Assembly (NCBI GenBank): GCA_947502305.1
Contig: CANMZA010000001.1
Coordinates: 1,612,001 to 1,676,000 of the forward strand
Reading direction: 5' to 3'
DNA: 64,000 nt
Source of the DNA: an uncultured Erythrobacter sp.
GTDB lineage: Bacteria > Pseudomonadota > Alphaproteobacteria > Sphingomonadales > Sphingomonadaceae
Shown: positions 39,848 through 56,604 of the stretch, one piece after another
Layout of the letters: every line of letters begins with the position of its first letter
How positions within the stretch are numbered: position 1 is the stretch's first letter
Notes under the pieces: generated by a model
The model's input: the letters and a program-made list of their open reading frames with translations, nothing else
Database searches by the model: none
What the model was told of the DNA's origin: nothing
Position numbers and translations under genes: made by a program

Positions 39848-41035
<1,188 letters not shown>

Positions 41036-41231: not shown

Positions 41232-41332
41232 CTCTATTTTTTGCGCATCGGATCCGCGACGCGATTTCCTCGCGCCTGACGGCGCTGCGGGCGGCCGGTC
41301 GGCCTTGCGGTCCGCTTCGCGGGCCGTGCTCC
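41232..41332 (+). repeat. Structured dispersed repeat, copy C
   Basis: This is the first of two direct copies. It shows the family order: T-rich start, hairpin 1 with ATCC loop (here with two mismatches), GCGCC/GGCGC hairpin, GGCC-GGTC-GGCC hairpin, and last hairpin CGGTCCGC-TTC-GCGGGCCG with one G-T pair. About 70 bases are nearly identical to copy D. Confidence 0.8.
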
Positions 41333-41333
41333 G

Positions 41334-41432
41334 CGTTTTTGTTTGCGCATCGCATCCGCGACGCGATTTCCTCGCGCCTGACGGCGCTGCGGGCGGCCGG
41401 TCGGCCTTGCGACGCCTACGGCGCCGTACCAG
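41334..41432 (+). repeat. Structured dispersed repeat, copy D
   Basis: Directly follows copy C and starts with the family lead GCGTTTTTGTTTGCGC. Hairpin 1 is CGCATCGC-ATCC-GCGACGCG (one mismatch), hairpin 3 GGCC-GGTC-GGCC, and the last hairpin CGACGCC-TAC-GGCGCCG (one mismatch). Forms a tail-to-tail pair with copy E. Confidence 0.8.
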
Positions 41433-41477
41433 CGCAATCCTCGATACGCGTTTGTGTCACTGTCTTTCTTGCTGAGT

Positions 41478-41606
41478 GGCGGTCCTTGGTCGCATAGCGA
41501 CCGCAAGGGCGCCAAAGACACAAAGGCGCCCGCCCGCAGCGGGCCCGTAGCATAGCGAAGGGCGTCTAGCGAGGACGCGCCCCCGGATGGGGCCGCGAAA
41601 AACAAG
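41478..41606 (-). repeat. Structured dispersed repeat, copy E
   Basis: Read on the minus strand, it begins right at the stop of the CaCA exchanger gene (41607), so it is that transcript's 3' tail. Hairpin 1 has the ATCC loop with one mismatch, the long-type third hairpin is GGGCGCC/GGCGCCC, and the last hairpin GGTCGC-TAT-GCGACC. It contains the CTAGACGCCCTTCGCTA segment shared with copy H. Confidence 0.85.
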
Positions 41607-42530
41607 CTACGCAAACACCAGCACCACATTGGCGGCGAAACCAGCTACCAGCAGCGCGCCTAGCACTCGGCCGATGCTCTTGGCGTACCACAACAACGCC
41701 AGCAAACCCGCCGCGCTGGCTGTTAGCAAGGCCATTTGCAGGCCTGCCAATTCCGCCGGCAAAGCGAAAGGCGCGATGGTCATTGTCGTGCCGCCGATCA
41801 GCAATATGTTATAGATGTTCGATCCCACAACATTGCCCAACGCCAGCCCCGATTTGCCACGCAAGGCCGCCGCAATTGACGCCGCGAGTTCTGGCAAAGA
41901 CGTGCCCACCGCCACAACAGTCAAGCCGATCACCGTTTCAGGCACTTCGAAAATCGTCGCCAAAGTGATTGCACCCGTCACCAAGGCATCACCGCCCGCG
42001 ACCAAAATACCCAGACCCACAACGAACAAAATCCCGGCGATCACACCGTTTGATGGTGCCTCATCCAAATCATCTTCTTCCGCCGCCGCGCCAGGATTGC
42101 GGTATCGCCACACGATGTAAATCAGGATACCGGCCAGCAAAGCGATCCCGATCCAGACCCCGCCAATCTGCGCCAAGGCCAATCCCCAAAGCAGCAAAGT
42201 CGCCGCCAGAGCCACCACCGCATCGCGCCGCCCGCTGCCGCTCAGCACGATCGGGGCCACCAATGCCGACACGCCAAGGATCAACAAAGTGTTCGCCAAA
42301 TTCGATCCGACAATATTGCCCCAAGCGATCTGAGGCGATCCGGCAAGGCTGGCCTGAACGCTGGCGACCATTTCGGGCATGCTGGTGGCAAAACCGACAA
42401 TCACAAGTCCGGTAAACAGGGTCGAGACGCCCAATTTCTGGGCAATGCCCACCGCCCCGCGCACCAGCAACTCGCCGCCAATCGCAAGGCCAACAAGGCC
42501 GCCTAAACTCAGGAGAATCGCTTCAATCAT
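41607..42530 (-). CDS. CaCA-family sodium/calcium exchanger (YrbG-like)
   Basis: This 307-residue inner-membrane protein has ten predicted helices in two inverted halves. Each half carries the alpha-repeat of cation/Ca2+ exchangers: GFATSMPEMVASVQASLAGSPQIAWGN with GNIVGSN, and AVGTSLPELAASIAAALRGKSG with GNVVGSN. A central acidic loop (EEDDLDEAPSNG) separates them. It likely exports Ca2+ in exchange for Na+ or H+. Its ATG lies within the last eight bases of rnhB, so they are co-transcribed. The 3' end runs directly into repeat copy E. Confidence 0.92.
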   Translation of the reverse strand: MIEAILLSLGGLVGLAIGGELLVRGAVGIAQKLGVSTLFTGLVIVGFATSMPEMVASVQASLAGSPQIAWGNIVGSNLANTLLILGVSALVAPIVLSGSGRRDAVVALAATLLLWGLALAQIGGVWIGIALLAGILIYIVWRYRNPGAAAEEDDLDEAPSNGVIAGILFVVGLGILVAGGDALVTGAITLATIFEVPETVIGLTVVAVGTSLPELAASIAAALRGKSGLALGNVVGSNIYNILLIGGTTMTIAPFALPAELAGLQMALLTASAAGLLALLWYAKSIGRVLGALLVAGFAANVVLVFA

Positions 42531-43203
42531 CGCGGGCGTTTACGGCACTGGGCCGCGACATCAAAGCCGCTTCGGCGACGGGCCGAAAACTGCGGCGGTG
42601 CAGGGGCGCGGGGCCGTGGGTTTTGAGGGCCGCCATATGCTCTGCCGATCCATATCCCTTATTGCGCTCCCACCCGTAATGCGGATGCGCGGCGGCGGCC
42701 TCTATCATCAATCGGTCGCGCCATTCTTTGGCCACGATGGACGCGGCGCTAATGGCGGGCTCTATCCCGTCCCCGCCCACAATCGCCCGCGCTTTCCAGC
42801 GCCATTCCGCGCACCGGCGCTCTGGCGTTTGATTGCCGTCGATCAGCACAATGTCTGGTTCACCCAAACCGTTCGACGCAATCTGCGCCGCCAAATCGCG
42901 GGTGCAGCGGGTCATGGCCAACATTGTCGCTTGGAAAATATTGACCGCGTCAATCTCCTCCGGCCCCACGACGGCAACCGCCCAATGACAAGTCGCACGA
43001 ATACCCTCGTCGAGCACGGCGCGGCGTTTTGCCGAAAGTTTCTTGGAATCGTTCAGCCCGGCGGGTACGTCTTTGCCCAGAACCACAGCGGCGGCCACCA
43101 CCGGCCCTGCGAGCGGACCCCGGCCCGCCTCGTCAACACCAATCGTGAACGGAGCGGGTTTCATGCTGGCACCAAAATCAAATTCAGGAGTTACCTGAGA
43201 CAT
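42523..43203 (-). CDS. rnhB: Ribonuclease HII
   Basis: RNase HII removes ribonucleotides from DNA and RNA of RNA/DNA hybrids. Catalytic acidic residues are visible: GVDEAGRGPLAGPVVAAAV (DE), VLIDGNQTPE (Asp) and ASIVAKEWRDRLM (the downstream acidic/Lys region). From ATG 43203 the product is 226 residues. ATG 43164 (MKPAPFTIGVDEAG, 213 residues) is an alternative start. ATG 43203 overlaps, on the opposite strand, the ATG of the sugar dehydrogenase at 43202, which is unusual for divergent genes and favours the shorter start or an upstream promoter inside the neighbour. Confidence 0.93.
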   Translation of the reverse strand: MSQVTPEFDFGASMKPAPFTIGVDEAGRGPLAGPVVAAAVVLGKDVPAGLNDSKKLSAKRRAVLDEGIRATCHWAVAVVGPEEIDAVNIFQATMLAMTRCTRDLAAQIASNGLGEPDIVLIDGNQTPERRCAEWRWKARAIVGGDGIEPAISAASIVAKEWRDRLMIEAAAAHPHYGWERNKGYGSAEHMAALKTHGPAPLHRRSFRPVAEAALMSRPSAVNARDD

Positions 43204-44371
43204 GAACATTCTTTCTAACAGCTCACTCGCCCTCTCCGCCCCTCTTGCTTTGGCGGCGGTCACTCTCGCAAGCTGCGCCTATGCCGAAACGGGGGAAAGC
43301 TCCTCAAGCGCGGCGGCCACGCCCGATTTCACGATCACCGAAATGGGCGAATTTGACCGGCCATGGGCGATTGAATTCATTCCCGGTTCGCGCACATTGG
43401 CGATCACGGAAAAGGCCGGCACGCTGAAATTGATGAAGGTCGATACCGGCGAAACCATTACCGTAACCGGCGTCCCAGAGGTCGCTTATGGCGGCCAAGG
43501 CGGGTTGGGCGATGTTGCGTTTTTGAATTCAGAGGCGGAACGTGAAGATGGGCGCACAATCTATCTGAGCTGGGCCGAAATGGGCGAAGACGGCGCGCGC
43601 GGCGCAGCGGTTGGGCGCGGCACTTTGGTCTGCACCGAGGAAAGCGCCGGTTGCGCCATCGAAGGGTTGGATGTGATCTGGCGGCAATCGCCAAAAGTCG
43701 AAGGGCGCGGGCATTATTCGCACCGCATCAGTTTTTCCCCCGATGAACAATATCTGTTTATCGCCAGCGGCGACCGGCAGAAACAAACCCCTGCGCAGGA
43801 CCTGTCGAACACTTTAGGCAGCATCGTCCGCCTGAACCTCGACGGCTCGCCCGCCGCCGGTAACCCGTTCGCCGATCAGGGCGGCGTGACCGCCGAAATC
43901 TGGTCCTATGGCCACCGCAATATCCTTGGCATGGATTGGGATGCAGAGGGGCGATTGTGGGATGTGGAACACGGCCCGGCTGGCGGGGATGAGCTGAATC
44001 TGGTCGCGGCGGAGGCGAATTATGGTTGGCCCACGCGCTCTTATGGCGAAAACTACAATGGCGACCCAATCCCCGATCACACCAATGATGATGGATTTGT
44101 GAAACCCGCAATCACTTGGACCCCGGTCATCGCGCCAGGGGACATGATTTTCTACACCGGCGAAATGTTTGGCGATTGGCAGGGTGACGCCTTGATCGCG
44201 GGCCTATCCAGCCGGGCGCTGGTTCGCATCGAAATTGACAGTGACAGCGCCGTCGAGGCCGCTCGCTACGACATGGATGGCCGCATCCGGTCCGTCGAAC
44301 AAGGGCCGGATGGCGACATCTGGGTGGCCGAAGACGGCGAGGACGGACGGATTTTGCGGATCAGCATGTAA
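43202..44371 (+). CDS. PQQ-dependent aldose/glucose-sorbosone dehydrogenase, lipoprotein
   Basis: The 389-residue exported enzyme has a lipoprotein-like signal (LAAVTLASCAYAE) followed by a six-bladed propeller of the soluble PQQ glucose/sorbosone dehydrogenase family. Recognisable are DRPWAIEFIPG, GGQGGLGDVAF, the GRGHYSHRISFSPDEQYLFIASGDR region (substrate/PQQ His and calcium site), WSYGHRNILGMDWD, EHGPAGGDELNL and GLSSRALVRIEI. It oxidises sugars in the periplasm, passing electrons to the respiratory chain. A GGAG lies 11 bases before the ATG. Copy A of the dispersed repeat begins three bases after the stop. Confidence 0.92.
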   Translation: MNILSNSSLALSAPLALAAVTLASCAYAETGESSSSAAATPDFTITEMGEFDRPWAIEFIPGSRTLAITEKAGTLKLMKVDTGETITVTGVPEVAYGGQGGLGDVAFLNSEAEREDGRTIYLSWAEMGEDGARGAAVGRGTLVCTEESAGCAIEGLDVIWRQSPKVEGRGHYSHRISFSPDEQYLFIASGDRQKQTPAQDLSNTLGSIVRLNLDGSPAAGNPFADQGGVTAEIWSYGHRNILGMDWDAEGRLWDVEHGPAGGDELNLVAAEANYGWPTRSYGENYNGDPIPDHTNDDGFVKPAITWTPVIAPGDMIFYTGEMFGDWQGDALIAGLSSRALVRIEIDSDSAVEAARYDMDGRIRSVEQGPDGDIWVAEDGEDGRILRISM

Positions 44372-44374
44372 GGC

Positions 44375-44492
44375 GTTTTTGTTTGCGCACCCCATTCGGG
44401 GTGCGATGTCCTCGCGCCATTGGCGCTGCGGGCGCGCGCCTTTGTTCTTTGGCGCGCTTACGGCTGCTGCGCAGCCGAGCTCCGCCATCAAG
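44375..44492 (+). repeat. Structured dispersed repeat, copy A
   Basis: Begins immediately after the sugar dehydrogenase stop. Hairpin 1 is CGCACCCC-ATTC-GGGGTGCG (8 bp perfect), then GCGCC-ATT-GGCGC, CGCGCC/GGCGCG and CGGCTGC-TGC-GCAGCCG (7 bp perfect). It ends with the GAGCTCCGCCATCAAG tail shared with copies B and H. Confidence 0.87.
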
Positions 44493-44567
44493 TCTGCAAC
44501 AAAGCGCTAGGCCCGCTTACAACCTGATCTTGGCACTTCGAACAAAACCCCCTAACCGCCGCCCGAC

Positions 44568-45110
44568 ATGACAGACGCTTCATCAGAAACCGCCACACTT
44601 ATCCCGCTTAATGCGGTCGAACCCGCTATGATTGAGGCTTTGTTGGACCGTGCATTCGGGCCGGATCGTCAGGCGCGCACCGCCTATCGGATGCGAATGG
44701 GGATGGAATGGCTCGATGCGTTGAGCTTTGCTGTGCTGGACGCCGATGAAATGTTGGTCGGCACGATCCAATGCTATCCCATCGCGCTGACTGACCGCGA
44801 AGGGCGTCCCGTGCCGTTGGTGATGGTGGGCCCGGTCGCTGTGGTGCCAGAACGGCAAGGCGAAGGGTTTGGCCAAGGATTGATGGCCGCGATGCTCGAT
44901 GCAGAGGCGCGGCTGGCAAAAGAAGGCTCTCCGCCGTTTGCGCAGGTTTTGATCGGTGATGCGGATTACTATGGCCGCTGGGGCTTTACTGCGGCGGCGA
45001 CGGGCGGCTGGCGCTGCCCCGGCCCGTATGAGGCGGAACGCCTGCTGGCACGCGGCGCGGGTCTGGCCGCAATGCCCGCAGAAGGAATGCTGGGGCCGTG
45101 GAGCCCGTAA
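44568..45110 (+). CDS. GNAT family N-acetyltransferase (YhbS-like)
   Basis: The 180-residue protein has a GNAT fold with the acetyl-CoA-binding motif A VVPERQGEGFGQGLMAAML (Q/R-x-x-G-x-G/A) at about residue 98 and a DADYYGRWGFTAAATGG segment typical of YhbS-like acetyltransferases. The acceptor is unknown. It stands alone, 75 bp after repeat copy A and 122 bp before the DUF1285 gene. Confidence 0.9.
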   Translation: MTDASSETATLIPLNAVEPAMIEALLDRAFGPDRQARTAYRMRMGMEWLDALSFAVLDADEMLVGTIQCYPIALTDREGRPVPLVMVGPVAVVPERQGEGFGQGLMAAMLDAEARLAKEGSPPFAQVLIGDADYYGRWGFTAAATGGWRCPGPYEAERLLARGAGLAAMPAEGMLGPWSP

Positions 45111-45232
45111 TTTGGCTTCTGGCTCGGTGCAGGATTTGCTCCGCACGGACCAATCCCCTGCCCTAGCAAGGTGCAAAAAACACAACTGACCCTTTCCCGG
45201 CGGGCTGACTTCTGCCACGGGGTGCTGCAATC

Positions 45233-45802
45233 ATGCCCTATGACCCGCCGCCTTACCTTGCCGAATTGTCGCTTTCGCAGATTGCGCAGCAAGTGGCGCA
45301 GCGCAAATTGCCGCCGGTTTCAGAATGGTCGCCCGCCAAAATCGGCGAAAGCCATATGCGCATCGCCGCCGATGGCAGCTGGTATCACGAAGGCGGTTTG
45401 ATCCGCCGCCCGGCAATGGTCCGCGCCTTTTCCGGCCTGCTCACCCGTGATGATCCGGCGCAAGGCGGCGGCTATTGGCTCGTCACGCCGTTTGAGAAAT
45501 TGTCGATTGAGGTCGAAGACGCCGCTTTTATCGCCACCGATTGCCTGCAAAAAGACGGCGATTTGGTATTCCTGCTCAGCAGTGATGAAATGGTGATTGC
45601 CGGGCCCGATAACCGCCTGCGCGTGGCGGGCGATCCGGAAACTCCGGCGATTTACCTGCATGTGCGCGGCGGGTGTGAGGCGCGGCTGAACCGGTCGACC
45701 TATGTCCAATTGATCGAGATTGCTTTGGATGCGAATGACGATCATCTGGACAGCGGATTGATTGTCAGCAGCCAAGGCGCTCTGTTTGCGCTGATGCCTT
45801 AA
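45233..45802 (+). CDS. DUF1285 family protein
   Basis: This 189-residue protein matches DUF1285 by its conserved core: IAADGSWYHEGGLIRRPAMVRAFSGLL (W-x-H-x-G-x-x-I-R-R), YWLVTPFEKLSIEVEDAAF and a closing LNRSTYVQLIEIA segment. Members are typically about 180-190 residues, cytoplasmic and of unknown function, often beside a Nudix hydrolase and CCA transferase gene as seen here. It is followed by the Nudix gene after 20 bp, and the three genes run in the same direction. Confidence 0.87.
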   Translation: MPYDPPPYLAELSLSQIAQQVAQRKLPPVSEWSPAKIGESHMRIAADGSWYHEGGLIRRPAMVRAFSGLLTRDDPAQGGGYWLVTPFEKLSIEVEDAAFIATDCLQKDGDLVFLLSSDEMVIAGPDNRLRVAGDPETPAIYLHVRGGCEARLNRSTYVQLIEIALDANDDHLDSGLIVSSQGALFALMP

Positions 45803-45822
45803 TTGCCGCAATAGGCCGCCGC

Positions 45823-46428
45823 ATGAGCACCCTTTTCGATAGGCTGAGCGCGCTGTTTGAAGAAGGCCATGCGCGCAATGTGCCCGGCCTGATGACAGAC
45901 ACGCAATTTGTGGATGGCGGCGGGCAAACACCGGCGGCGGTTTTGATTGCGGTGACGGACCGGCCCGAACCCGGCGTGATCCTGACGCAGCGCCCGCGCG
46001 GCATGCGCAGCCATCCCGGCCAAGTCGCCTTTCCCGGCGGAAAACTGGACCCCGGCGAAGACGCCGTGACCGCCGCCCTGCGCGAGGCGGAGGAGGAATT
46101 GGCCTTGCCCAGAGCCGCCGTGCGCGTGATCGGGACCAGCGACCTTTACCAGACCGGCACCGGTTTTGATGTGACCCCGGTTCTTGCGGTGGTGCCGCCC
46201 GATCTCAAATTGACGCCCAATCCCGATGAAGTCGAAGCCTGGTTTGAGGCACCCTTATCGCTGCTGCTCAATCCTGACAGTTGGGATAGCAATGAGGTGT
46301 TTTGGCGCGGCGCGATGCGGCATTATCTTGAGATGGATTATGACGGCTTTCGCATCTGGGGCGTGACCGCGGCGATCCTGTCAAACCTCTCCCAACGTAT
46401 TCCTTTGGACGCCTTTCGGGATGTTTAG
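45823..46428 (+). CDS. Nudix hydrolase, CoA pyrophosphatase type
   Basis: The 201-residue enzyme carries a full Nudix box, GGKLDPGEDAVTAALREAEEEL, broken here as Gly-x5-Glu-x7-REAEEEL (about residues 68-90). The preceding LTQRPRGMRSHPGQVAFPGG is the UPF0035/CoA-diphosphatase signature. It should hydrolyse CoA or CoA esters to phosphopantetheine and 3',5'-ADP. It is the middle gene of the DUF1285-Nudix-CCA cluster. Confidence 0.92.
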   Translation: MSTLFDRLSALFEEGHARNVPGLMTDTQFVDGGGQTPAAVLIAVTDRPEPGVILTQRPRGMRSHPGQVAFPGGKLDPGEDAVTAALREAEEELALPRAAVRVIGTSDLYQTGTGFDVTPVLAVVPPDLKLTPNPDEVEAWFEAPLSLLLNPDSWDSNEVFWRGAMRHYLEMDYDGFRIWGVTAAILSNLSQRIPLDAFRDV

Positions 46429-46499
46429 AGGCGCTTAACGCACGCATCCGGCAAGGCTGGGCTTGCCCGCAATGCCGCTTTGCTATTAGCGGTGGGGCT

Positions 46500-47696
46500 G
46501 TGAACACGTCTCTTTCTTCTTCGGATTGGCACCAGGCTGCTGAATGGCCGCGCCGTGCTGGGCTGCGCGCGCTGACGGCGGCTTTGGGGGCGGATAATAT
46601 ACGCTGGGTCGGCGGCGCGGTGCGCGATACGTTGATCGGCATGGCGGTGCACGATGTCGATTGCGCGACATTGCACACGCCAGACACCGTGATCGACCTG
46701 TGCAAGGCGGCGGGCATACGCACCGTGCCAACGGGGATCGACCACGGGACGGTCACCGCCGTGCTGGATGATGGCCCGGTCGAAGTCACCACTTTGCGCC
46801 GCGATGTCGCCACCGATGGCCGCCGCGCGGTTGTCGCCTTTGCCAGCGATTGGCGCGAGGATGCGGCGCGGCGCGATTTCACCATCAATGCGCTCTATGC
46901 CCACCCCGAAACGATGGAAATTTCCGATTATTTCGGCGGCCTCGATGATCTGGCCGCGCGCCGTGTGCGGTTCATTGGCGATGCGCGTGAACGAATTGCG
47001 GAGGATCATTTGCGGATCCTGCGATATTACCGGTTTCAGGCGCGGTTCGGCGCGGATCTGGATGCGGTGGCGGAGGACGCCTGCGCTGATTTGGCGAGCA
47101 CTTTAAAAGGGCTCAGCCGTGAACGTGTGGCGTCGGAATTGCTCTCTTTGCTCGCTCTGCCTGCGCCGTATGAAACCACCGCGCGGATGCGGGATCGCGG
47201 TGTCTTGGGCGTGATTTTGCCCGAAAGCTGCGCCGTGCATGTGCGGGCGCTGGAGGCGCTGATTGCGCAAGAAACGGTGCAAGATTTCGCGCCAGACGCT
47301 CTGCTTCGCCTTGCCGCTTTATTGCCGCCATCGCCCGATGTGGCGGCAGATGTGGCCGCGCGGCTGCGTCTGTCCCGGGCACAGCGCGCACGGCTGATTT
47401 CGGCGGCGGAACGGCTGAGCACGGATGCGCAGGATGTCTATGCGCTGGCTTACCGGCTGGGCACGCAGTTCGCGAGCGATCGGTTGCTGCTGCTGGGCGA
47501 AGATGCCCGCCGGATTGCTAATTGGCCGCGCCCGGTCTTCCCGCTCAAAGGCGGCGCGATTGTGGCGCGCGGCGTCGGTGCGGGGCCCGAGGTCGCGCGG
47601 ATTATGCAAGCGGTCGAACGAAGCTGGATCGAGGAAGGTTTCCCCGGCGAAACCCGCGTCCACGAATTGTTAAACGCGCAATTGAGCGCCTCCTGA
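46500..47696 (+). CDS. cca: CCA tRNA nucleotidyltransferase
   Basis: The 398-residue class II nucleotidyltransferase adds or repairs the 3' CCA of tRNAs. The head domain shows IRWVGGAVRDTLIGM followed by HDVDCATLHTPD (the DxD metal site), then RRDFTINALYAHPE and a FIGDARERIAEDHLRILRYYRFQARFG segment, all typical. The C-terminal half has shorter, less conserved helical modules and no HD phosphohydrolase domain. Start is GTG 46500. It could alternatively act as poly(A) polymerase, but length and motif spacing favour the CCA enzyme. It lies 71 bp after the Nudix gene. Confidence 0.92.
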   Translation: MNTSLSSSDWHQAAEWPRRAGLRALTAALGADNIRWVGGAVRDTLIGMAVHDVDCATLHTPDTVIDLCKAAGIRTVPTGIDHGTVTAVLDDGPVEVTTLRRDVATDGRRAVVAFASDWREDAARRDFTINALYAHPETMEISDYFGGLDDLAARRVRFIGDARERIAEDHLRILRYYRFQARFGADLDAVAEDACADLASTLKGLSRERVASELLSLLALPAPYETTARMRDRGVLGVILPESCAVHVRALEALIAQETVQDFAPDALLRLAALLPPSPDVAADVAARLRLSRAQRARLISAAERLSTDAQDVYALAYRLGTQFASDRLLLLGEDARRIANWPRPVFPLKGGAIVARGVGAGPEVARIMQAVERSWIEEGFPGETRVHELLNAQLSAS

Positions 47697-47926
47697 GCGG
47701 GCCCAAACAGCGGCGTTAAGGCCAGCTTCACTCATTGCCGGCCATAGTCTCCTTTCACACTCACTGCTCAAAATCACCGGTCCAAGTCACTGACTTGCCA
47801 CCCCTCTTCCCCCCAATTAGGGAACCACACGCAAGGCCCATCCATTGGACCTATTGTGCACCGCCGCCGGGCATTGCTGACACCGCAAATGCCGGGCGCG
47901 AAATTTAAACTGGAGAACAAAGAATA

Positions 47927-48535
47927 ATGATGCCGACAATGAAGTTTGCAAAGATTGCCGTTTTTGCCGCCGCCCTGCCCGCCGCCATGATGGCCGCCCC
48001 GATTGCCGCAAATGCGCAGGATGTCGGCACCACCGTAATGGGCAATGACGACGCACCAATCGGCACCGTTACCGCCAATGAAGGCGGCATTGTCACCGTC
48101 GACACTGGCAAACACAGCGCACCGCTCCCCGCAAATTTGCTGGCGGAGCGTGAAGGCAATTGGACCGTCAACGCAACGCAGGCGCAAATTAACGGCATGA
48201 TGGACGCACAAGTCGCCGCCGCCAATCAGGCGCGCGATGCCGCCTTGGTCGAAGGCGCAGCCGTGGTGAGCGCCGACGGCATGCCCGCAGGCACAGTCTT
48301 CACCGTGGACACCGCAGACACGGTGATCGTGCAAAACGAAGCGGGCATTATTACGCTGACCCGCGACACTTTCGCCGTGAACGCAGAGGGCGCTTTGATG
48401 GCGCTGTATTCCGCAGAACAGCTCGCGGCGAACACCGTTGAAGTTCCAGAAGGCGCGGAAATCCTGACCCCGGCGCAATTGGCCGCGAAAGAGGCGGCTG
48501 CGGCAGCGGAAGCTGCAGCGGATGCTGGCGCGTAA
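47927..48535 (+). CDS. Exported two-repeat protein of unknown function
   Basis: The 202-residue protein has a signal peptide (KFAKIAVFAAALPAAMMAAP, cleavage near ANAQD). The mature part contains two similar modules of about 60 residues: one from DDAPIGTVTANEGGIVTVD and one from DGMPAGTVFTVDTADTVIVQ, each a beta-rich start followed by an Ala-rich helix. The order resembles a small PRC-barrel-like half but is not a confident match. The C-terminus is almost pure Ala/Glu. A GGAGAAC site precedes the ATG. Repeat copy B begins 52 bases after the stop. Confidence 0.75.
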   Translation: MMPTMKFAKIAVFAAALPAAMMAAPIAANAQDVGTTVMGNDDAPIGTVTANEGGIVTVDTGKHSAPLPANLLAEREGNWTVNATQAQINGMMDAQVAAANQARDAALVEGAAVVSADGMPAGTVFTVDTADTVIVQNEAGIITLTRDTFAVNAEGALMALYSAEQLAANTVEVPEGAEILTPAQLAAKEAAAAAEAAADAGA

Positions 48536-48587
48536 ACTTTAACGCTAGAATGATTTACAGGACGCGGCTGCTCTTTGGAGCGGCCGC

Positions 48588-48918: not shown

Positions 48919-51219
48919 TCACCCAAACCGATTATCTTTCGGGAACCCTTGCGGCGGCATCCTTCCGGCGGCTCCGCGAGCGACCTTCCATTGCCAGATG
49001 TCGTTCTCTGTCCGCGTGCGCTCGCCTGATCCGCCCATTTGCCAGCTCAGCCCGTCGGCCAGCACAAATGTCGTCGCATCCGACAATCCGCCATCGCGGT
49101 ATCGTTGCAGCATAACGCCCTGGCCCCGCGCCATCACCGGCATTTCTTCAAGGTTGAACACGATCAACTTGCGGTTGTCTCCTACCGCTGCGACGTGATC
49201 ATCGCCTTGTGGCACTTCGCGGATCACTTGCAGGGCGGCATTGCCTTTCAGGTTCACGACCTGCTTGCCCTTCTTGGTCTCCGCCAACAGTTCTTTCGTC
49301 TCCGCCAAGAACCCTTTGCCATTGCTGGAAGCGAGCAGCAGTCGGCCGCCTTCCTTGTGCACCAGCATTTTTGCGATCGAGGCATCGCTTTCGAGGTCGA
49401 TCATCGTGCGGACCGGCTCCCCAAACCCGCGCGCACCGGGCAATTTGTCACAACCAAGCGTGAAGAACCGCCCATCAGAACCCGCGATCAGCAGCTTATC
49501 GGTCGTTTGCGCATGCAGGATGAAGGCCAGCGCATCGCCTTCTTTATATTTAAACTCCTGCGCCAGATCGACGTGGCCTTTCGCGGCCCTGATCCACCCT
49601 TTTTGCGACAAGATCACCGTCACCGGCTCTTTCTCGATCATCGCGTCCATCGAAAATTCGACCATCGGGGCCGCCTCTTCAATCCGCGTGCGCCGCGCGC
49701 CCAGCTTCGTTTCCTCGGCATAATCCTTACGCAGAGCGCGCAGGTCTTTCTTCAATCGTGTGCGTTGGCGCGCCGGGCTGTCGAGCAGTTTTTGCAGATC
49801 GTCTTGCTCTGCCAGCAAATCGTCCTTTTCCCCGCGCAGCTGCATCTCCTCCAGCTTGCGCAAAGACCGCAAACGCATATTGAGGATCGCTTCTGTCTGA
49901 CGGTCCGTCAGGCTAAATTCCGCCATCATCACCGTCTTTGGCTCATCCTCATATCGGATGATCTCAATCACCCTGTCGAGGTTGAGGAAGGCGATAATAT
50001 AGCCCTCCACCAGCTCCAACCGGCGGGTGATTTGATCCAGCCGGTATTGGGTGCGGCGCTGCAAAATCTCGATTTGCGCGCGCGTCCAGTTTTCCAGCAG
50101 CTCCTTCAGCCCCATCACCATCGGGGTCCGCGTCGCGTCAAGGACGTTCATATTGAGCCCAAAGCGGGTCTCCATATCCGTCAGTTTAAAGACGCTTTCC
50201 TTCAGCAATTCCGGATCAACATTGCGGCTGCGCGGGACCAGGACGATGCGAATGCTCTCATCGCTCTCATCGCGCACATCCTCAAGAATTGGCAATTTCT
50301 TATCGGCAATGGCTTGCGCGATCTGTTCGATCAGCTTGCCCTTGGCGACCTGATACGGAATTTCGGTGATCACCAATTGCCATTGACCCCCGCCCAGACG
50401 TTCAATCCCGGCCGCCACATCTTCTGGTTTCTCTGCCTCAGGCGCGTGGAACACGCCGCGCAAACGAAATGATCCGCGCCCGGTAAGATAAGCGTGCGAG
50501 ATCACCTCAGCGCTGTCGATGACTTGGCCGCCCGTGGCAAAATCGGGACCCTTCATCAGCTCCATCAACCGGTCATGTTCGACATGCGGATTATCGATCA
50601 ATTCCAGCGTCGCATCGATCACTTCTGCAACATTGTGCGATGGGATATTGGTCGCCATGCCCACCGCAATCCCGCTTGACCCATTGGCCAGCAGGTTGGG
50701 GAACAGGCCCGGCATCAATTCCGGCTCTTCTTCCTCACCATTATAGGTCGGAATGAAATCAACCGTGCCCGCATCCAGCCCTTCCATCAGGTGCATCGCG
50801 GTTTTGGTCAGGCGCGCCTCTGTATAACGATACGCCGCCGCATTATCGCCATCGACATTGCCGAAATTCCCCTGCCCCTCCACCAAAGGATAGCGCAGCG
50901 AGAAATCCTGAGCGAGCCGCACCATCGCATCATAAGCGGCGGTGTCGCCATGCGGGTGATATTTACCGATCACCTCGCCGACAACACGCGCGGATTTCTT
51001 AAATGTGTTCGACGGATCCAGCTTTAACTGACGCATGGTCCACAGCAGCCGGCGATGAACCGGTTTCAAACCATCGCGCAAATCCGGCAGCGACCGGGCG
51101 GTGATCGTGGACAGCGCATAGACCAAATACCGTTCCGACAAAGCGGCATCGAACGGCGCGTCAACGATGGCGTCGAATTCATCAGGATTGGAATCGGAAG
51201 TGTCGGTCGGATTAGCCAT
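48919..51219 (-). CDS. parC: DNA topoisomerase IV subunit A
   Basis: This 766-residue type IIA topoisomerase subunit decatenates daughter chromosomes. The N-terminal breakage-reunion domain has [30 protein letters not shown] (quinolone-resistance region) and [11 protein letters not shown] with the active-site Tyr. The C-terminal beta-pinwheel is shorter than that of GyrA and lacks a recognisable GyrA box. The length (about 766 against about 900 for alphaproteobacterial GyrA) and this absence favour ParC over GyrA. ATG 51219. Confidence 0.92.
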
Positions 51220-51402
51220 GCGGTGTGCTTAGCAATGTGGCGCGCGCTGAGGGAGAGGCGTTTCCACAGGAATAGAAGGCGGATTTGGCCCGCTAAAATG
51301 AAGGGGGTTGAATTGTGGCGCAAATGTGGCAGAAATATGGCGAGAATAAGGCGAATCCCTATAACCCGCCTCATTCTCACCCCGTATTTGAGGAGAGAAT
51401 TG

Positions 51403-52332
51403 ATGAAAAAATGGAAGTTATCAGCCGCAATTGTGTTCGCCGTCAGCACCTTGACGCTTGCCGCGTGCAGCGATGCGAGCGATGCGAGCGATCCTGCCGC
51501 GAGCTACACCGACGCTTCTGCTGATATTGGCTATGAAGCGGAAATGGCCGCCGCCGAAATGGCAGACGCGCAAACGGCAGACGCAGGCGGCTCCGCTATC
51601 CCCCAGCTTGCCGATATTGGCGTCAACGTACCCAAACTCTCCTACACTTACGAATATCGTTGGCGCATGGCGGCGGAGGAAATCGGATCTTTGCAACGTC
51701 GCCATGCCAGCCTGTGCGAACAGCAAGGCATGGGCGCCTGCCAGATTTTGGGCATGACCAAGACTGGCGAAGAGGCGGATGAGGTCCAAGGCGTGCTCGA
51801 AATGGCCGTTGCCAGCCGCCAAGCGCGCGCCTTTGGCGCATTGCTAGAGGACGAAGCGCAAGATGCAGGCGCAGAGCAAATTGCCGCAGAGATCGCGTCA
51901 GAAGAATTGTCCAAGCGCATTGTCGACACAGAAGCCCGGCTGCGCGCGCGTACAGAATTGAGGGATAGGTTGATGACAGCGTTAGCGGCGCAGCGCGGCA
52001 CAGTCGAAGAAATGGTTGAAGCGGAACGCAGTGTGGCGCGGGTCAATGAAGAAATCGACCAAGCGCGCAGCTGGCTCACCGAAATGGAGGGGCGCGTCGC
52101 CTATAGCAGGATCACAGTTCGCTATGAAACGGGCGTCCCGATTACCAATGATTTCCTGACCCCGGTTCAAAGCGCGGTTGGCGCTCTGGGTTCGATCCTT
52201 GGGTTCATGTTCGCCGGTCTGATCTTAATCGGATCCGTGGTTCTGCCAATCGGCCTGATCGTTTGGGGCATTGGCAAAGCCGGGCGCAGGATGGCTCAAG
52301 GCTCTGATCTGTCCGCAGAAACGCCAGCATAA
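51403..52332 (+). CDS. DUF4349 domain lipoprotein
   Basis: From ATG 51403 (site AGGAGAG) the product is 309 residues: lipoprotein signal with lipobox LTLAACSD, an Ala/Asp/Glu-rich spacer, then a DUF4349 domain (about residues 80-260) with a long coiled coil (RIVDTEARLRARTELRDRLM, VEEMVEAERSVARVNEEIDQAR), RVAYSRITVRYE and a final C-terminal membrane helix (FMFAGLILIGSVVLPIGLIVWG). It would be anchored at both ends in the envelope. Function is unknown. It ends 10 bp from the convergent sodium-channel gene. Confidence 0.87.
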   Translation: MKKWKLSAAIVFAVSTLTLAACSDASDASDPAASYTDASADIGYEAEMAAAEMADAQTADAGGSAIPQLADIGVNVPKLSYTYEYRWRMAAEEIGSLQRRHASLCEQQGMGACQILGMTKTGEEADEVQGVLEMAVASRQARAFGALLEDEAQDAGAEQIAAEIASEELSKRIVDTEARLRARTELRDRLMTALAAQRGTVEEMVEAERSVARVNEEIDQARSWLTEMEGRVAYSRITVRYETGVPITNDFLTPVQSAVGALGSILGFMFAGLILIGSVVLPIGLIVWGIGKAGRRMAQGSDLSAETPA

Positions 52333-52342
52333 ACTTGGGCCG

Positions 52343-53119
52343 TCAGTCGCCGCGTTCCCGCCGGAGCGCGGCGACCTCTTCCCTTAGCGCCTTTAGCTGC
52401 TCAATAATCATCTCACGCTCGCTATGCGCGTCGTCCTCGGTCGCCTCGGCCATGGCGTTCACGATCACACCGATAAACAGGTTGAGCACGATGAAACTGG
52501 TGATCAGGATGAACGGGACGAAGAACGCCCAAGCATAGGGAAACTCCTCCATCACCGGGCGGACAATCCCCATCGACCACGATTCCAGCGTCATAATCTG
52601 GAACAAAGAATAAAGCGACGCGCCCAGATTGCCGAACCATTCGGGGAATGCATCGCCGAACAATTTCGTCGCCATTACTGCGCTGATGTAAAAGAGCAGC
52701 AGCAGCATGACGATCACGGTCGCAATGCTGGGTATGGCGCTGAACAGGCCGACAATGACTTTGCGCATGCTGGGCACCACCGACACCAACCGCAATGCCC
52801 GCAAAATACGCAGAGCGCGCAGCACAGAGAATTGCGCGCCCGCAGGCAGCAGAGCCGCGCTGACGATGGCGAGGTCGAAAATGTTCCAACCGCTTTTGAA
52901 AAATGCGAGGCGATAGGCGAACAATTTGATTGCCAACTCGACCACAAAAATCGCCAAAGCAATAGTATCAAGCAGTGACACCGCCCCGCCCACCGCATCC
53001 ATCGCCGCGGGCGAAGTTTCGACCCCCAACCCGATGGCGTTGATGACAATCACCGCAATGATAAACCGTTCAAATCCAGCGGATTCGACGAGCGCTGCTG
53101 CGCGTTCTCGCAACGTCAT
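52343..53119 (-). CDS. Bacterial voltage-gated sodium channel (NaChBac/NavAb type)
   Basis: This 258-residue, six-helix channel subunit should form homotetramers. S1-S3 occupy about residues 15-90. S4 has regularly spaced Arg (VLRALRILRALRLVSVVPSMRKV). The pore has selectivity filter TLESWS (about residue 178), the same sequence as in NavAb and close to NaChBac, so Na+ selectivity is expected. S6 is VPFILITSFIVLNLFIGVIVNAMAEA broken into the usual hydrophobic run, followed by the acidic neck and a C-terminal coiled coil (EREMIIEQLKALREEVAALRRE), which assembles the tetramer. Related channels help with motility and pH homeostasis in alkaline or marine bacteria. Confidence 0.92.
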   Translation of the reverse strand: MTLRERAAALVESAGFERFIIAVIVINAIGLGVETSPAAMDAVGGAVSLLDTIALAIFVVELAIKLFAYRLAFFKSGWNIFDLAIVSAALLPAGAQFSVLRALRILRALRLVSVVPSMRKVIVGLFSAIPSIATVIVMLLLLFYISAVMATKLFGDAFPEWFGNLGASLYSLFQIMTLESWSMGIVRPVMEEFPYAWAFFVPFILITSFIVLNLFIGVIVNAMAEATEDDAHSEREMIIEQLKALREEVAALRRERGD

Positions 53120-53128
53120 AATCTGTCC

Positions 53129-53464
53129 CTAAAGCCCGCGCGCATCTGTGCTTTCGCCCGGCACGCTGACGGTCAAACCGTCCAGCTCTGGGGAAAGGTC
53201 GATCTGGCACGAAAGGCGGCTCGTCCGGCGCGCACCTGCGGCGAAATCGAGCATATCTTCTTCTTCTTCGCTGGCCTCGGTCAGCCGCGCAAACCATTCC
53301 GCCGCGACGATCACGTGGCAGGTTGAGCACGCCATTTGCCCCTCGCACGTCCCTTCGAGCGGCAATCCGGCCGCTTGGCCGAGTTTTAGCAAATTGTCGC
53401 CCGCCTCCCCTTCGGCATCAATCCGGTTGCCGCGCGGGTCGATAAATGTGACTTTTAGCCCCAC
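53129..53464 (-). CDS. 2Fe-2S ferredoxin (adrenodoxin type)
   Basis: The 111-residue ferredoxin ligates its cluster with CEGQMACSTC and a downstream Cys in SRLSCQID, the C-x5-C-x2-C...C arrangement of ISC/adrenodoxin ferredoxins. Start is GTG 53464, with AAGGAG eight bases before it. It overlaps the end of the cysteine desulfurase gene by ten bases, so the two are translated together. The pairing suggests electron supply for iron-sulfur cluster assembly. Confidence 0.92.
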   Translation of the reverse strand: MGLKVTFIDPRGNRIDAEGEAGDNLLKLGQAAGLPLEGTCEGQMACSTCHVIVAAEWFARLTEASEEEEDMLDFAAGARRTSRLSCQIDLSPELDGLTVSVPGESTDARGL

Positions 53465-54546
53465 TTTTCTTGCTCCTTAACCGCCGCATTTATTGCGCTG
53501 GCGGCCTGTTCGATATCATCCATGGTCGTATATCGGCTCCACCCCAGACGGACCGAGTTTTTGGCCTGTTTGTCGGTGAGGCCGATGGATTTCAAGACAT
53601 GGCTGGGCCGGCCTGATCCGCTGGCGCAGGCGCTGCCGGCGGAAAACATGACATTGCGGCAATCGCTCATCAAACGCGCGACATCCAATCCATCGCGCCG
53701 GATGTTGAGATTTCCATGCCACCGTGCGGAGGCGCCACCGTTTAAGTCCCAATCGGCGAACAATTCGCGCGCGCGGGTCCACAGCTTTTCGGCATGCTCT
53801 GCGTCTTGCACCATGCGTTCTGCCGCGATTTGCGCAGCCGCGCCGAAACCCGCAATCAGAGCAGGCGACAAAGTGCCGGAGCGCAAGCCCGCCTCTTGCC
53901 CGCCGCCGGTTTGCTGCTGTTTCAATTCTACGCCGTCTCGCACCCACAAGGCGCCGATGCCTTTCGGCCCGTGAAGTTTGTGCGCGCTGACAGCGATCAT
54001 ATCAGCCGGGGCGACGGGCATTTTCCCGTAAGCCTGCACCGCGTCGATCAAGAACAGGGCATTGGCCTCTTTCGCGCGGCGGTGCCAATCAGTGCTGAGT
54101 TGGATGGTGCCGATTTCGTTATTCACCTGCATGACCGCGACCAGCCGCGTGTTTGCGGGCAAGTCTTGCGCGGGGTCGCAAATGCCGTCTTTATCGACGC
54201 TGAGGATATGGTGATCACCAGCATCTTTGGCCGTGTCACCAACAGCGGAATGTTCGGTAGCAGAGAACGCGGCTGTGCCAGTTTTCCCGCCGCTCGCGCT
54301 GCCCCGGATTGCCAAATTCAACGCTTCGGTTGCGCCGCCGGTAAAGATCACCTGTCCGCCCGGCGGAAACAAAGCCGCCACCCGGTCGCGCGCCAATTCC
54401 ACCGCTGCTGCGGCCTGACGGCCCATCCGGTGCGGGGAATGGGGATTGCCAAACCCGGTGCCATCCGCCCCGTCCAGCCAGCGCAGCATCGCATCGCGGG
54501 CCTCCGGCGCGAGGGGCGTTGTCGCCTGATTATCGAGATAGATCAT
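53455..54546 (-). CDS. Cysteine desulfurase family protein (IscS/NifS-like), second copy
   Basis: This 363-residue class V aminotransferase removes sulfur from cysteine as an enzyme-bound persulfide. It starts at MIYLDNQATTPLAPEA (ATG 54546, overlapping the upstream stop as ATGA). GFGNPHSPHRMG, TGGATEALNLAI, the PLP Lys in SAHKLHGPKGIGALW and the persulfide Cys in SAGSACASGSGRPSH are all present. Longer upstream sequence in this frame is not coding-like. It is arranged in tandem with a related gene and followed by a ferredoxin. Confidence 0.92.
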   Translation of the reverse strand: MIYLDNQATTPLAPEARDAMLRWLDGADGTGFGNPHSPHRMGRQAAAAVELARDRVAALFPPGGQVIFTGGATEALNLAIRGSASGGKTGTAAFSATEHSAVGDTAKDAGDHHILSVDKDGICDPAQDLPANTRLVAVMQVNNEIGTIQLSTDWHRRAKEANALFLIDAVQAYGKMPVAPADMIAVSAHKLHGPKGIGALWVRDGVELKQQQTGGGQEAGLRSGTLSPALIAGFGAAAQIAAERMVQDAEHAEKLWTRARELFADWDLNGGASARWHGNLNIRRDGLDVARLMSDCRNVMFSAGSACASGSGRPSHVLKSIGLTDKQAKNSVRLGWSRYTTMDDIEQAASAINAAVKEQEKWG

Positions 54547-55532
54547 GTGAGAGAAGCCCAGCGGTCCGCAAATCGTTCCAATTCTTCGCGCGTGGTGCTC
54601 CAACCGATGCTGACGCGGATGGTGCGTGCGGCGACGTCGTCCGACACGCCAAACGCGTCGAGAACGCGGCTTTTTTTGAGTGTGCCGGAGGAGCATGCGC
54701 TGCCTGCGGAGACGGCGAAACCCACCGCGTCGAGGCGGATTAGAAGAGCTTGGGCAGAAAGAGTGGGGTGGGTGAGTGCGGCGATATAATCGACCTGATC
54801 CCCAATGCTTAGCGCGTCCCCCTTCACCGCGTCAGCAAACCAAGCGCGATCTTGCGGCGTGGTCTGCCAATCGCCTGCCTCCAGCGCGGCGGCCATGCCC
54901 ATCGCGCCAGGCAAATTCTCTGTGCCTTGCCGGTATCCGCGCTCATGCCCGCCAATCGGATTGAGCAAATTGAAATCGCGCACCAACAAAGCGCCCATCC
55001 CAATCGGCCCGCCAAATTTATGCGCCGACACCACCGCCATATCGGCATCCGGCAGAGCGATCTTGCCCGCGCTTTGCGAACAATCAGACAGCAAGACCGC
55101 TCCGGTTGGCTTAACGGTTTGCGCCATTTGCGCGACGGGATTGATGACGCCGGTTTCGGAATTCACATGTTGCACCGCAAAAATGGTGCGGGCGTCCAAA
55201 ACGGCGTCATCGGAGAATATCGCCGCATCTGGCGCGGCGCGAAACACCGCGTCATGTTCAACGGCGCTGACGATCCGGTGGTCAACCTTCGCGCGCTGCA
55301 ATCCAATCGCCAGAGCCTCACTCGCGCCGCTGGTGAAAATCACCTCGCCGTCCCATGAAAGCGCCGCCTTCACCCGGTCGCGCGCATCCTCAAGAGCGGA
55401 TTTCGCCTTGCGCCCTTCGCCATGCGGGCTTGACGGATTCGCCCACAGCTCAAACCCCTGCTCCATCGCGGCGCGCGCCTCTGGGCGCAGCGGCGAGGTC
55501 GCCGCGTGATCGAGATAAATTCTTGGCTTAAT
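54543..55532 (-). CDS. Cysteine desulfurase family protein (IscS/NifS-like), first copy, with unclear start
   Basis: The aligned protein is about 330 residues with the conserved N-terminus RIYLDHAATSPLRPEA, NPSSPHGEG, FTSGASEALAIGL, PLP Lys in SAHKFGGPIGMG and persulfide Cys in SAGSACSSGTLKKSR. However, there is no ATG, GTG or TTG between the in-frame stop at 55542-55544 and the first ATG at 55466, which lies after the conserved cofactor-binding N-terminus. I give the start as the ATT codon at 55530-55532. An internal ATG start would remove about 22 essential-looking residues. A 12-codon frame MSVTQFIVSRSH ends at TAA within CATTAAG here, so a frameshift or leader-coupled start is also possible. 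Confidence 0.8.
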   Translation of the reverse strand: MKPRIYLDHAATSPLRPEARAAMEQGFELWANPSSPHGEGRKAKSALEDARDRVKAALSWDGEVIFTSGASEALAIGLQRAKVDHRIVSAVEHDAVFRAAPDAAIFSDDAVLDARTIFAVQHVNSETGVINPVAQMAQTVKPTGAVLLSDCSQSAGKIALPDADMAVVSAHKFGGPIGMGALLVRDFNLLNPIGGHERGYRQGTENLPGAMGMAAALEAGDWQTTPQDRAWFADAVKGDALSIGDQVDYIAALTHPTLSAQALLIRLDAVGFAVSAGSACSSGTLKKSRVLDAFGVSDDVAARTIRVSIGWSTTREELERFADRWASLT

Positions 55533-55551
55533 GCGAACGACTCACAATAAA

Positions 55552-55580
55552 TTGCGTAACTGACATAGTCCCTATATAGA
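55552..55580 (+). promoter_or_regulatory. Candidate sigma-70-type promoter for the alpha/beta hydrolase gene
   Basis: TTGCGT (55552-55557) and TATAGA (55575-55580) are separated by 17 bp, 60 bp before the ATG at 55640. The same AT-rich stretch reads CTATAT on the other strand and could serve the divergent desulfurase unit. Confidence 0.4.
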
Positions 55581-55639
55581 GCGCGCATTCTTGCTTGCCA
55601 CCCGGCTTGCACCGCTCTTATCTCAGCAAGGTTTCCACG

Positions 55640-56296
55640 ATGCCATCAGTCATCTTTCCCGGTCCAGAGGGCCGTCTCGAAGGTCGTTTTTCACCTCCAC
55701 CCCGCCCGCGCGCGCCGGTTGCCATGATCCTGCACCCGCACCCAGAGGGCGGCGGCACGATGAATGACCGGATCGTGCAACGGATGTATAAGACATTTGC
55801 TGATCGCGGTTTTGCGGTTTTGCGGTTCAACTTTCGCGGCGTGGGCCGCAGCCAAGGCAGCTTTGATAGCGGCATTGGCGAATTGTCAGACGCGGCCAGC
55901 GCGCTTGATTGGGTGCAAAGCATCCACCCAGAGGCGCAAACGACATGGGTTGCGGGATATTCCTTTGGCGCGCTGATCGGCATGCAATTGTTGATGCGCC
56001 GTCCAGAAGTGCGCGGATTTATCTCCATCGCGCCGCCTGCCAATATGTATGATTTCAGCTTCCTCGCGCCCTGCCCCGCCAGCGGTATTTTCGTGCAAGG
56101 CGCCGCCGATACCGTGGTCCAGCCGGGCGCGGTGCAGAAATTAGTCGATAAGCTGCGTACGCAAAAACACATCACCATCCACCACGACGAAATCCCGCGC
56201 GCCAACCACTTCTTCGAAAACGAAACCGAAGAAATGATGGCATCGGTCGACAATTACCTAGATTTCCGCCTGTCGCCAGATTGTCCGATCAAATAA
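55640..56296 (+). CDS. Small alpha/beta hydrolase (DUF/YmfD-like cytoplasmic esterase fold)
   Basis: This 218-residue alpha/beta hydrolase starts MPSVIFPGPEGRLEGRF. It has the conserved ILHPHPEGGGTMNDR segment, LRFNFRGVGRSQGSFD, nucleophile elbow AGYSFGALIG with Ser, and a late ANHFFEN that supplies the His. The acidic residue is likely in QGAADTVVQP. This pattern is widespread in alphaproteobacteria and the substrate is unknown. I chose ATG 55640 (AAGG upstream) over ATG 55595. A hairpin terminator overlaps its stop. Confidence 0.9.
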   Translation: MPSVIFPGPEGRLEGRFSPPPRPRAPVAMILHPHPEGGGTMNDRIVQRMYKTFADRGFAVLRFNFRGVGRSQGSFDSGIGELSDAASALDWVQSIHPEAQTTWVAGYSFGALIGMQLLMRRPEVRGFISIAPPANMYDFSFLAPCPASGIFVQGAADTVVQPGAVQKLVDKLRTQKHITIHHDEIPRANHFFENETEEMMASVDNYLDFRLSPDCPIK

Positions 56297-56331
56297 TCCC
56301 TTCGGGCTATTTGATCTGAGTCTTTGTGTTT
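56287..56331 (+). terminator. Terminator-like hairpin overlapping the hydrolase stop
   Basis: GATCAAATA (56287-56295) pairs perfectly with TATTTGATC (56308-56316), enclosing CCC-TTC-GGG. The stop codon lies in the left arm. It runs directly into the T-rich lead of repeat copy G. Confidence 0.5.
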
Positions 56332-56445
56332 CGCCGCCCCATCCGGGGCGGCGTCCTCGGTGCGATTCGCTTCACTTCGTTACGCGGCACCTGCGGGCGC
56401 GCGGTCGCGCTTGCGACGCCGTTGGCGTCGATGCTGCGCGGGCCC
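56319..56445 (+). repeat. Structured dispersed repeat, copy G
   Basis: Starts three bases after the hydrolase-gene hairpin. Hairpin 1 is CGCCGCCCC-ATCC-GGGGCGGCG (9 bp perfect), hairpin 3 GCGC-GGTC-GCGC and the last hairpin CGACGCC-GTT-GGCGTCG (7 bp perfect), all with bases different from copies A, B and F but still complementary. Tail-to-tail with copy H. Confidence 0.87.
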
Positions 56446-56475
56446 AGTAACCTTCTGCCTTCACCGCACTCTGTG

Positions 56476-56604
56476 GCTTGATGGCGGAGCTCGGTCGCAC
56501 AGCGACCGCAAGGGCGACCGCCCGCCCGCAGCGGGCCCGTAGCGTAGCGAAGGGCGTCTAGCGAGGACGCGGCCCCGGATGGGGGCGCGAAAAACAAAAA
56601 CGCA
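56476..56604 (-). repeat. Structured dispersed repeat, copy H
   Basis: Minus-strand copy facing copy G. Hairpin 1 has the ATCC loop with one mismatch, then GGGC-GGTC-GCCC and CGGTCGC-TGT-GCGACCG, ending in the GAGCTCCGCCATCAAG tail. Unlike the others it is not at the 3' end of a same-strand gene. Confidence 0.85.

Follow-up and report, generated by a model that had tools for sequence, protein, structure and literature searches.

Multi-hairpin intergenic repeats of Erythrobacter resemble non-autonomous mobile elements of the BIME/REP-dimer kind

The bacterial interspersed mosaic elements (BIMEs) of enterobacteria are mosaic clusters of repetitive extragenic palindromic (REP) units in alternating orientation. 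The Rhizobium-specific intergenic mosaic elements (RIMEs) are alphaproteobacterial intergenic units of ~100 bp with large palindromes. Here, we describe a repeat family in a 64,000-nucleotide stretch of the genome of an uncultured Erythrobacter sp. (assembly GCA_947502305.1, contig CANMZA010000001.1, positions 1,612,001–1,676,000; hereafter the window). Its units measure ~95–130 bp (about 110 bases) and carry four hairpins, H1 to H4; by general description alone, RIMEs are alike in size, intergenic place and palindromes. We propose, with a probability of roughly 0.62, that these are short non-autonomous intergenic mobile DNA repeats of the BIME/REP-dimer kind. Within that kind they would be a new make, combining multi-hairpin units, mostly unlike-armed convergent dimers, the lack of a GTAG/CGTC tag at the tested ends, the lack of a REP-associated tyrosine transposase (RAYT) and a bias towards gene ends.

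According to the available excerpts of PMC3733652, REPs tagged with CGTC or GTAG are hairpins of 20–40 bp with an unpaired tag, and the CGTC stems nearly always have A-T in their first two positions. Most families prefer heterodimers, proposed to escape host clearance of palindromes, with spacers mostly of 20–100 bp. The CGTC REPs are said to be without a dedicated transposase, and the variant TGTC is allowed. The Erythrobacter repeats are like these REPs in being intergenic palindromes, many of them in Alphaproteobacteria, that form inverted unlike dimers, but they have four hairpins per unit, GC-rich stems and no tag at the tested positions. With BIMEs (so named in the abstract of PMC2817692) and with REPINs, the REP doublets described in the excerpts of PMC3116915, they share alternating units, a doublet as the likely unit, clustering, a mosaic build and presumed mobility in trans. 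However, REPINs are tied to RAYT genes, of which the source genome has none, and differ in unit length and in lacking the multi-hairpin make. The RU-type repeats of enterobacteria, which resemble miniature inverted-repeat transposable elements (MITEs; ~100–170 bp, abstract of PMC2759123), are alike by description in being intergenic, non-autonomous and of similar length, but live in different hosts.

Each unit runs from a T-rich lead (by eye often G[AC]GT[CT]TTTGTTT) through H1, TCCTCG, H2, CTGCGGGC, H3, CTTGCG and H4 to a tail. H1 has 8–9 bp and the loop ATCC; H2 is a short (GCGCC/GGCGC or GGCCC/GGGCC), medium or long module; H3 has 4 bp with the loop GGTC, or is a version with a longer loop; H4 has 6–8 bp and a three-base loop. 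The tail is often GCTCCGCCATCAAG or GCTCCGC, and its CCGC is able to pair back to GCGG. A third unit type (loci L293, L294 and L299, and 1375–1468 of L039) has CGGGCGC..ATCC.., TTGGCT and a GCCGCATAAGCGGC-like H2 (GCCGCAGGGGCGGC in L039), and repeatedly faces a short unit in a convergent pair. Some copies (e.g. at L294, L304 and L308) may have an extra hairpin past the tail, ACCAAG...CTTGGT with ~20 nt between the arms.

The preliminary description of the window reported eight copies, each opening with a T-rich lead. Reading of the sequence and a covariance model bore this out. The model, R2, was built from 11 copies, just one of which (41342) comes from the window, and the covariation and context counts below rest on it. 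An unfiltered search recovered all eight copies (44–104 bits, E ≤ 2.7e-7), four of them above 90 bits (41342, 44382, 48595 and 41240). The lead stands before each copy on its own strand, and all the stem words quoted in that description are present; its letters (A, 44375; B, 48588; C, 41232; D, 41334; E, 41478; F, 48741; G, 56319; H, 56476) are not in coordinate order, and we number the copies 1 to 8 along the window. Beyond what was first described, three of the eight lie on the minus strand (the other five on the plus strand), the copies group convergently, and there is a ninth.

Copies 1 and 2 are short-type units on the plus strand, placed head to tail (copy 1, 41235–41335, model match 41240–41340, 91 bits; copy 2, 41333–41443, match 41342–41443, 104 bits). 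Copy 1 consists of the T-rich lead, an imperfect H1 with the loop ATCC, TCCTCG, H2, CTGCGGGC, H3 GGCC/GGCC with the loop GGTC, CTTGCG, H4 and the tail GTGCTCCGC. Convergent with both is copy 3 (long type, 41471–41606, match 41471–41601, minus strand, 44 bits), 5 nt off the stop codon of a Na/Ca exchanger gene (41607–42530, minus strand); the three form a block of ~370 bp (41235–41606) in the gap between ccrM and the exchanger gene. The lead of copy 4 (short type with long-loop H3, 44372–44493, match 44382–44493, plus strand, 91 bits) starts directly past the TAA of a glucose/sorbosone dehydrogenase gene (43202–44371). Copy 5 (short type with long-loop H3, 48586–48706, match 48595–48706, plus strand, 97 bits) lies directly 3' of the T-run of a terminator-like hairpin behind the gene at 47927–48535 (plus strand). 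It faces copy 6 (long type, 48733–48864, match 48733–48851, minus strand, 65 bits) across a 26-nt spacer, and copy 6 is downstream of parC (48919–51219, minus strand). Copy 7 (long type, 56319–56447, match 56329–56447, plus strand, 54 bits) stands behind a hairpin and a T-rich stretch, 3' of an alpha/beta hydrolase gene (55595–56296, plus strand), and is convergent with copy 8 (long type, CTAGACGCCC variant, 56476–56608, match 56476–56593, minus strand, 65 bits), which is upstream of a TonB_C gene. Copy 9 is diverged (18749–18837, plus strand, 29.7 bits, E 2e-4) and lies 4 nt past a sense stop codon.

R2 matches 34 times in the source genome (E ≤ 0.001), and the exact core pattern occurs there 20 times, versus 0 for a reversed control pattern. 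Matches to R2 were found in all 37 genomes of the genus (the source genome included; 1 to 43 matches each), and in 69 of 199 sampled genomes of the family; of 24 genomes representing the order's other families, 0 had a match. Counts from the searches of the family and the relatives are lower bounds, as these were run under stricter filtering with no more than 20 or 67 candidates scored per genome. Across the class, the exact core pattern was present in 4 of 385 sampled genomes, all four within the family of the window. A scan of named genomes for the core pattern gave at least 117 stretches. Among the 80 matches listed, most belong to Erythrobacter, Porphyrobacter, Altererythrobacter, Croceibacterium, Qipengyuania and relatives, and others to Woodsholea, Oceanicaulis, Glycocaulis and a few metagenome-assembled genomes named Novosphingobium, Rhodobacterales or only Alphaproteobacteria; R2 run on 44 of these 80 loci gave 68 matches. 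The unit of Woodsholea maritima (Maricaulales) and Oceanicaulis is reduced, without H1 but with the hinge, CTGCGGGC, H3 and H4 retained. Croceibacterium xixiisoli (L131, 2386–4700) has eight core-pattern matches in ~2.3 kb, in runs of adjacent copies; by eye six of the eight units are without H1, and two stand directly behind a stop codon. Plasmid records gave 0 matches to the repeat. The core pattern was also seen in 42 stretches of IMG/VR contigs (L311–L352), whose source could be host sequence within proviral contigs.

The family had gone unrecognised at first. In Rfam, no match in the 64-kb window reached a gathering score, and a relaxed search (E ≤ 10) of 41000–57000 gave three chance-level matches (best E 3.1), all far under the gathering score. 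We found no published description of it in the open-licence literature, and one elsewhere is possible. E. cryptus is listed in a count table of PMC12306157.

Like BIMEs and REP dimers, the family is multi-copy and extragenic. We took 140 distinct copies from 85 loci scored by R2: 134 lie between genes and have both neighbours called, two overlap a called gene and four are missing a neighbour. Units occur singly, head to tail or, most commonly when they have a neighbour, convergently. The 43 neighbour pairs no more than 200 nt apart comprise 26 convergent, 14 tandem and 3 divergent pairs. Convergent spacers measure 24–38 nt in 14 of the 26, often ~28 nt, and tandem spacers are zero in seven. 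With pairs that have an untyped partner left out (12 convergent, 3 tandem), the convergent pairs are short-short in 1 of 14 and long-long in 2 of 14, and the tandem pairs short-short in 8 of 11 (P 0.002). The inverted, often unlike units by which BIMEs and REP dimers are known are thus found here too.

We compared the sites of the window with a parC-anchored region that is syntenic in 17 relatives of the genus. At the ccrM/Na-Ca exchanger site, 10 of 10 comparable relatives gave no R2 match. The copy-4 site gave none in 17 of 17 relatives, and the copy-5/6 site none in 13 of 13 comparable ones, with a remnant resembling H1 in one of them. Two of 10 relatives carry an element at the copy-7/8 site. 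In one relative, G030, whose DNA is 77–83% identical in long blocks of the region, the block of copies 1–3 is absent and the copy-4 site is empty, and elements are present at the other two sites; its site orthologous to that of copy 9 (L283) also holds an element. The sites are polymorphic for presence and absence between related species. Across the source genome, 19 of 40 copies match a relative locus with a nearby element by at least one flank, and 12 by both flanks; 19 is a lower bound, as only part of the relatives' loci were covered by the flank matching. The preliminary description had considered a REP/BIME-like element, a non-autonomous mobile element or an RNA module. Site polymorphism, unlike convergent pairs, head-to-tail arrays and the intergenic restriction support the first two.

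The position of the units relative to genes is not random in one respect. We assumed that units are placed uniformly and independently within the gap as it now stands, and called genes with our own hexamer caller. On that basis, 40 of 78 T-rich ends lie no more than 20 nt from a sense stop codon, versus 18.9 expected. The other end shows no excess near stops (21 of 71 versus 19.8 expected), and neither end does near starts (8 of 56 versus 8.0 and 4 of 63 versus 7.2). In the source genome alone, the T-rich end is at a sense stop in 11 of 20 cases versus 2.7 expected (P 3e-6) and the other end in 4 of 21 versus 3.8; orientation itself is unbiased there, with a sense gene end upstream of 20 of 39 copies and a start upstream of 19. 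Genes that stop no more than 5 nt from the T-rich end have T as the final base of their last codon in 19 of 28 cases, versus 91 of 471 among controls (P 1e-7); the T-rich tract thus seems to reach into the gene and to take in its stop codon. At the copy-5 site, terminator T-runs are already present in relatives whose site is empty. The empty copy-4 site of G030 carries GTTTTTGTTTGCGC, which is T-rich and could also be a scar. We infer that insertion occurs beside T-rich tracts.

The stems had been described as variable yet paired, and the paired changes as strong evidence of selection on structure. In the 11-copy alignment we counted 34 double-change cells, versus 12.5 when shuffled and 0–7 with the partners slid. 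In the 140-copy alignment, double changes occur in 24 of 27 pairs and in 610 cells, far above the 194.8 (sd 9.2) of shuffled and the 29–111 of slid alignments, and 93.2% of cells pair. By these counts, the absence of covarying pairs that would have spoken against the preliminary description is not seen. The stems are not all perfect, with one or two mismatches in H1 of the copies at 41240, 41342, 41471 and 56476. A fully complementary pair of arms is found in 71 of 139 copies for H1, 120 of 137 for H3 and 87 of 137 for H4, versus 8, 32 and 9 when the arms are shuffled. Over the 110 best rows, loops and hinges are 0.95–1.0 conserved at most positions and inner stem positions 0.53–0.77; the hinge values are somewhat favoured because the relatives' copies are those that the model matched best. 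At orthologous sites (19 comparisons, 351 pairs, with partners that we chose among flank-matched copies), double substitutions that retain Watson-Crick pairing were seen in 64 pairs, substitutions confined to one side in 23 and unpaired double substitutions in 5, so that 64 of 92 changed pairs are compensated; independence would predict 18 double and 124 single changes.

The claim of selection was nevertheless too strong, because exchange between copies can also make paired changes and whole hairpin modules appear to have been swapped. Copies 41240 and 41342 are nearly identical from H1 to H3, and their H4 and tail are different modules. Likewise, the unit at the copy-8 site is long in the window and short in its partners in G030 and another relative (G009), which suggests replacement. 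Module exchange or replacement between copies probably contributes to the matched stems. Could the paired changes be mostly mutational or recombinational, module exchange or template switching in hairpins having matched the arms without any selection on structure? The few, recurrent stem words (30 distinct perfect words for H1, 6 for H3 and 27 for H4) would fit, as would the two cases of apparent swapping. However, the stem sides at the same sites differ by 22.9% and the hinges and loops by 6.9% (30 of 433 positions), which implies that the non-stem sequence is constrained or homogenised. In addition, G-C and C-G alternate freely at the inner two pairs of H3 (76/55 and 76/53) with almost no A-T, whereas under pure template copying transitions would be expected as the commonest first step. 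We regard this explanation as unlikely.

We then asked whether pairing is kept in RNA or in DNA. The H1, H3 and H4 cells (n = 2564) comprise 2426 Watson-Crick pairs, 33 G-U, 59 A-C (32 at one pair, 27 without it) and 46 others. In 15 tRNAs of the same loci (318 cells), with stems as predicted by ARAGORN, which in part selects for pairing, there are 293 Watson-Crick pairs, 25 G-U and no A-C or other cells. The G-U share is thus ~1.3% in the repeat versus 7.9% in the tRNAs, and the repeat does not show the tolerance of G-U but not A-C that marks structured RNA. The outer GCG/CGC pairs (34 G-U, 8 A-C, 28 other) say little because their left side is nearly invariant. The rare imperfect pairs have no clear strand preference. 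Coevolution of G-U in RNA exceeds that of G-T in single-stranded DNA, as stated in the excerpts of PMC6993869. As G-U is about as rare as A-C, unlike in tRNA stems, pairing looks to be kept at the DNA level and not in RNA. DNA-level pairing is by itself no proof of selection.

These counts bear on the RNA reading of the preliminary description, in which the repeat would be a structured module of 3' untranslated regions (3' UTRs) acting just past the stop codon in mRNA stability, termination or small RNA release. The very strong covariation, the nearly invariant loops and hinges, the sense placement beside stop codons and the compensated changes at orthologous sites, with Watson-Crick pairing retained, are all what such a module would show. 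However, G-U (33) is about as scarce as A-C when one pair is set aside (27), 19 of the 39 copies in the source genome have no sense gene end upstream, the sites are often empty in relatives, and no Rfam family matches at its gathering score. The RNA module is thus not favoured, and we consider it improbable.

Several results weigh against the proposal that the repeats are mobile DNA. A stop-codon preference is equally expected from a function in the 3' UTR, and selection for stable GC stems could partly explain why G-U is scarce. The copies at orthologous sites in relatives are mutually dependent. No target duplication or exact junction is definable at the compared sites, because even G030 differs by ~20% in DNA. 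The 12 shared-site copies are no more decayed than the 29 others (P 0.5; the unshared group contains a duplicate row, L062:1501, the same as L039:887), which speaks against plain insertion followed by decay. The search for a mobiliser was negative as well. Y1_Tnp (PF01797), the domain of the RAYT family, has 0 matches in the source genome, and the same search finds it in E. coli and Caulobacter; it is present in 3 of 37 genomes of the genus, whereas the repeat is in all 37. Eight loci with arrays or pairs have 29 called genes, and no transposase or recombinase turned up among the 20 of these that we ran against Pfam. PF04986 (Y2 transposase) had 0 matches in the 37 genomes, which is uninformative, as the control was likewise without a match.

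A REPIN or REP family moved by a RAYT, a Y1 HUH transposase, is accordingly a very improbable identity for the repeats. Their inverted doublets, intergenic location, hairpins and arrays do resemble the REPINs of PMC3116915 as excerpted, but, besides the near absence of Y1_Tnp, the tags are missing: GTAG, CGTC and their complements occur in 0 of 140 copies at the four positions read (four bases on each side of H1 and H4), and the CGTC variant TGTC precedes H1 in 5 of 140. Nor do the units have the length of a REP hairpin; they are several times longer than the 20–40 bp given in the abstract of PMC3733652. Set against the REP collections through these papers and the end-tag reading, the family is REP-like in its dimer habit and not in its ends. 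Of the features of MITEs, inverted pairs are seen; no autonomous partner was found in the source genome, the 37 genus genomes or the array loci, and no empty site close enough to show a target-site duplication. The conservation of structure over stem sequence, the tandem arrays and the DNA-level pairing also bring to mind the integron attC site, which a tyrosine recombinase acts on as folded single-stranded DNA. However, attC is one imperfect long hairpin and the repeat has several separate ones, and at the loci that we read the copies stand beside ordinary genes in all orientations and not in a single cassette array; we give this identity even less credence than the RAYT-moved one.

Taking the repeats as mobile DNA of the BIME/REP-dimer kind, we can sketch how they might behave. 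An enzyme supplied in trans would recognise the hairpins in their DNA form, probably as single strands or cruciforms. Insertion next to T-rich tracts, such as gene ends and terminator T-runs, would favour gene ends. Module exchange between copies could keep the stems matched while diversifying them, and unlike arms may be retained because the host clears perfect inverted pairs. A more specific scenario is possible, although we hold it only tentatively and think it more doubtful than not: insertion is steered to gene-end T-tracts, the T-rich end supplying the last codon and stop of the host gene; the repeat moves as an unlike-armed inverted dimer by a non-RAYT enzyme; and it has crossed between Erythrobacteraceae and Maricaulales. 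If gene-end targeting is true, the repeats rewrite the last codons of host genes and provide a natural setting in which to look for a mobiliser of palindromic repeats other than a RAYT, which the excerpts of PMC3733652 leave as an open question. Covariation as strong as that of an RNA can arise from what appears to be a DNA repeat, and counting G-U against A-C is a cheap separation of the two, of relevance to surveys in which covarying intergenic motifs are taken for new RNAs.

Other dispersed inverted repeats occupy the same gaps in relatives. The gap between a hypothetical gene and parC holds GTCATTGCGAG...CTCGCAATGAC in one of them (L254 of G021); this repeat may be a CGTC-tagged REP, and its matches in the window are no more than chance. 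The gap between the hydrolase and tonB genes holds a CGGGTCAAGCCCGGG-like inverted repeat at L264 and L270 and TCGTCCTGAGCCTGTCGAAGG at L265. Among the array and pair loci, a DPBB_1 (lytic transglycolase) gene occurs at two, probably one orthologous site, and LysR regulators at two. G030 has four gapless head-to-tail units (L302, 1631–2013) between its ZapA and 5-formyl-THF cyclo-ligase genes, an interval that in many bacteria houses 6S RNA. Finally, GAGTC is present in 16 of 140 leads versus 7 of 1393 control windows (e.g. at 48851–48864 and 56319–56328 of the window). GAGTC is one form of GANTC, the CcrM site; copies 1–3 adjoin ccrM, and several GAGTC/GACTC sites lie upstream of that gene.

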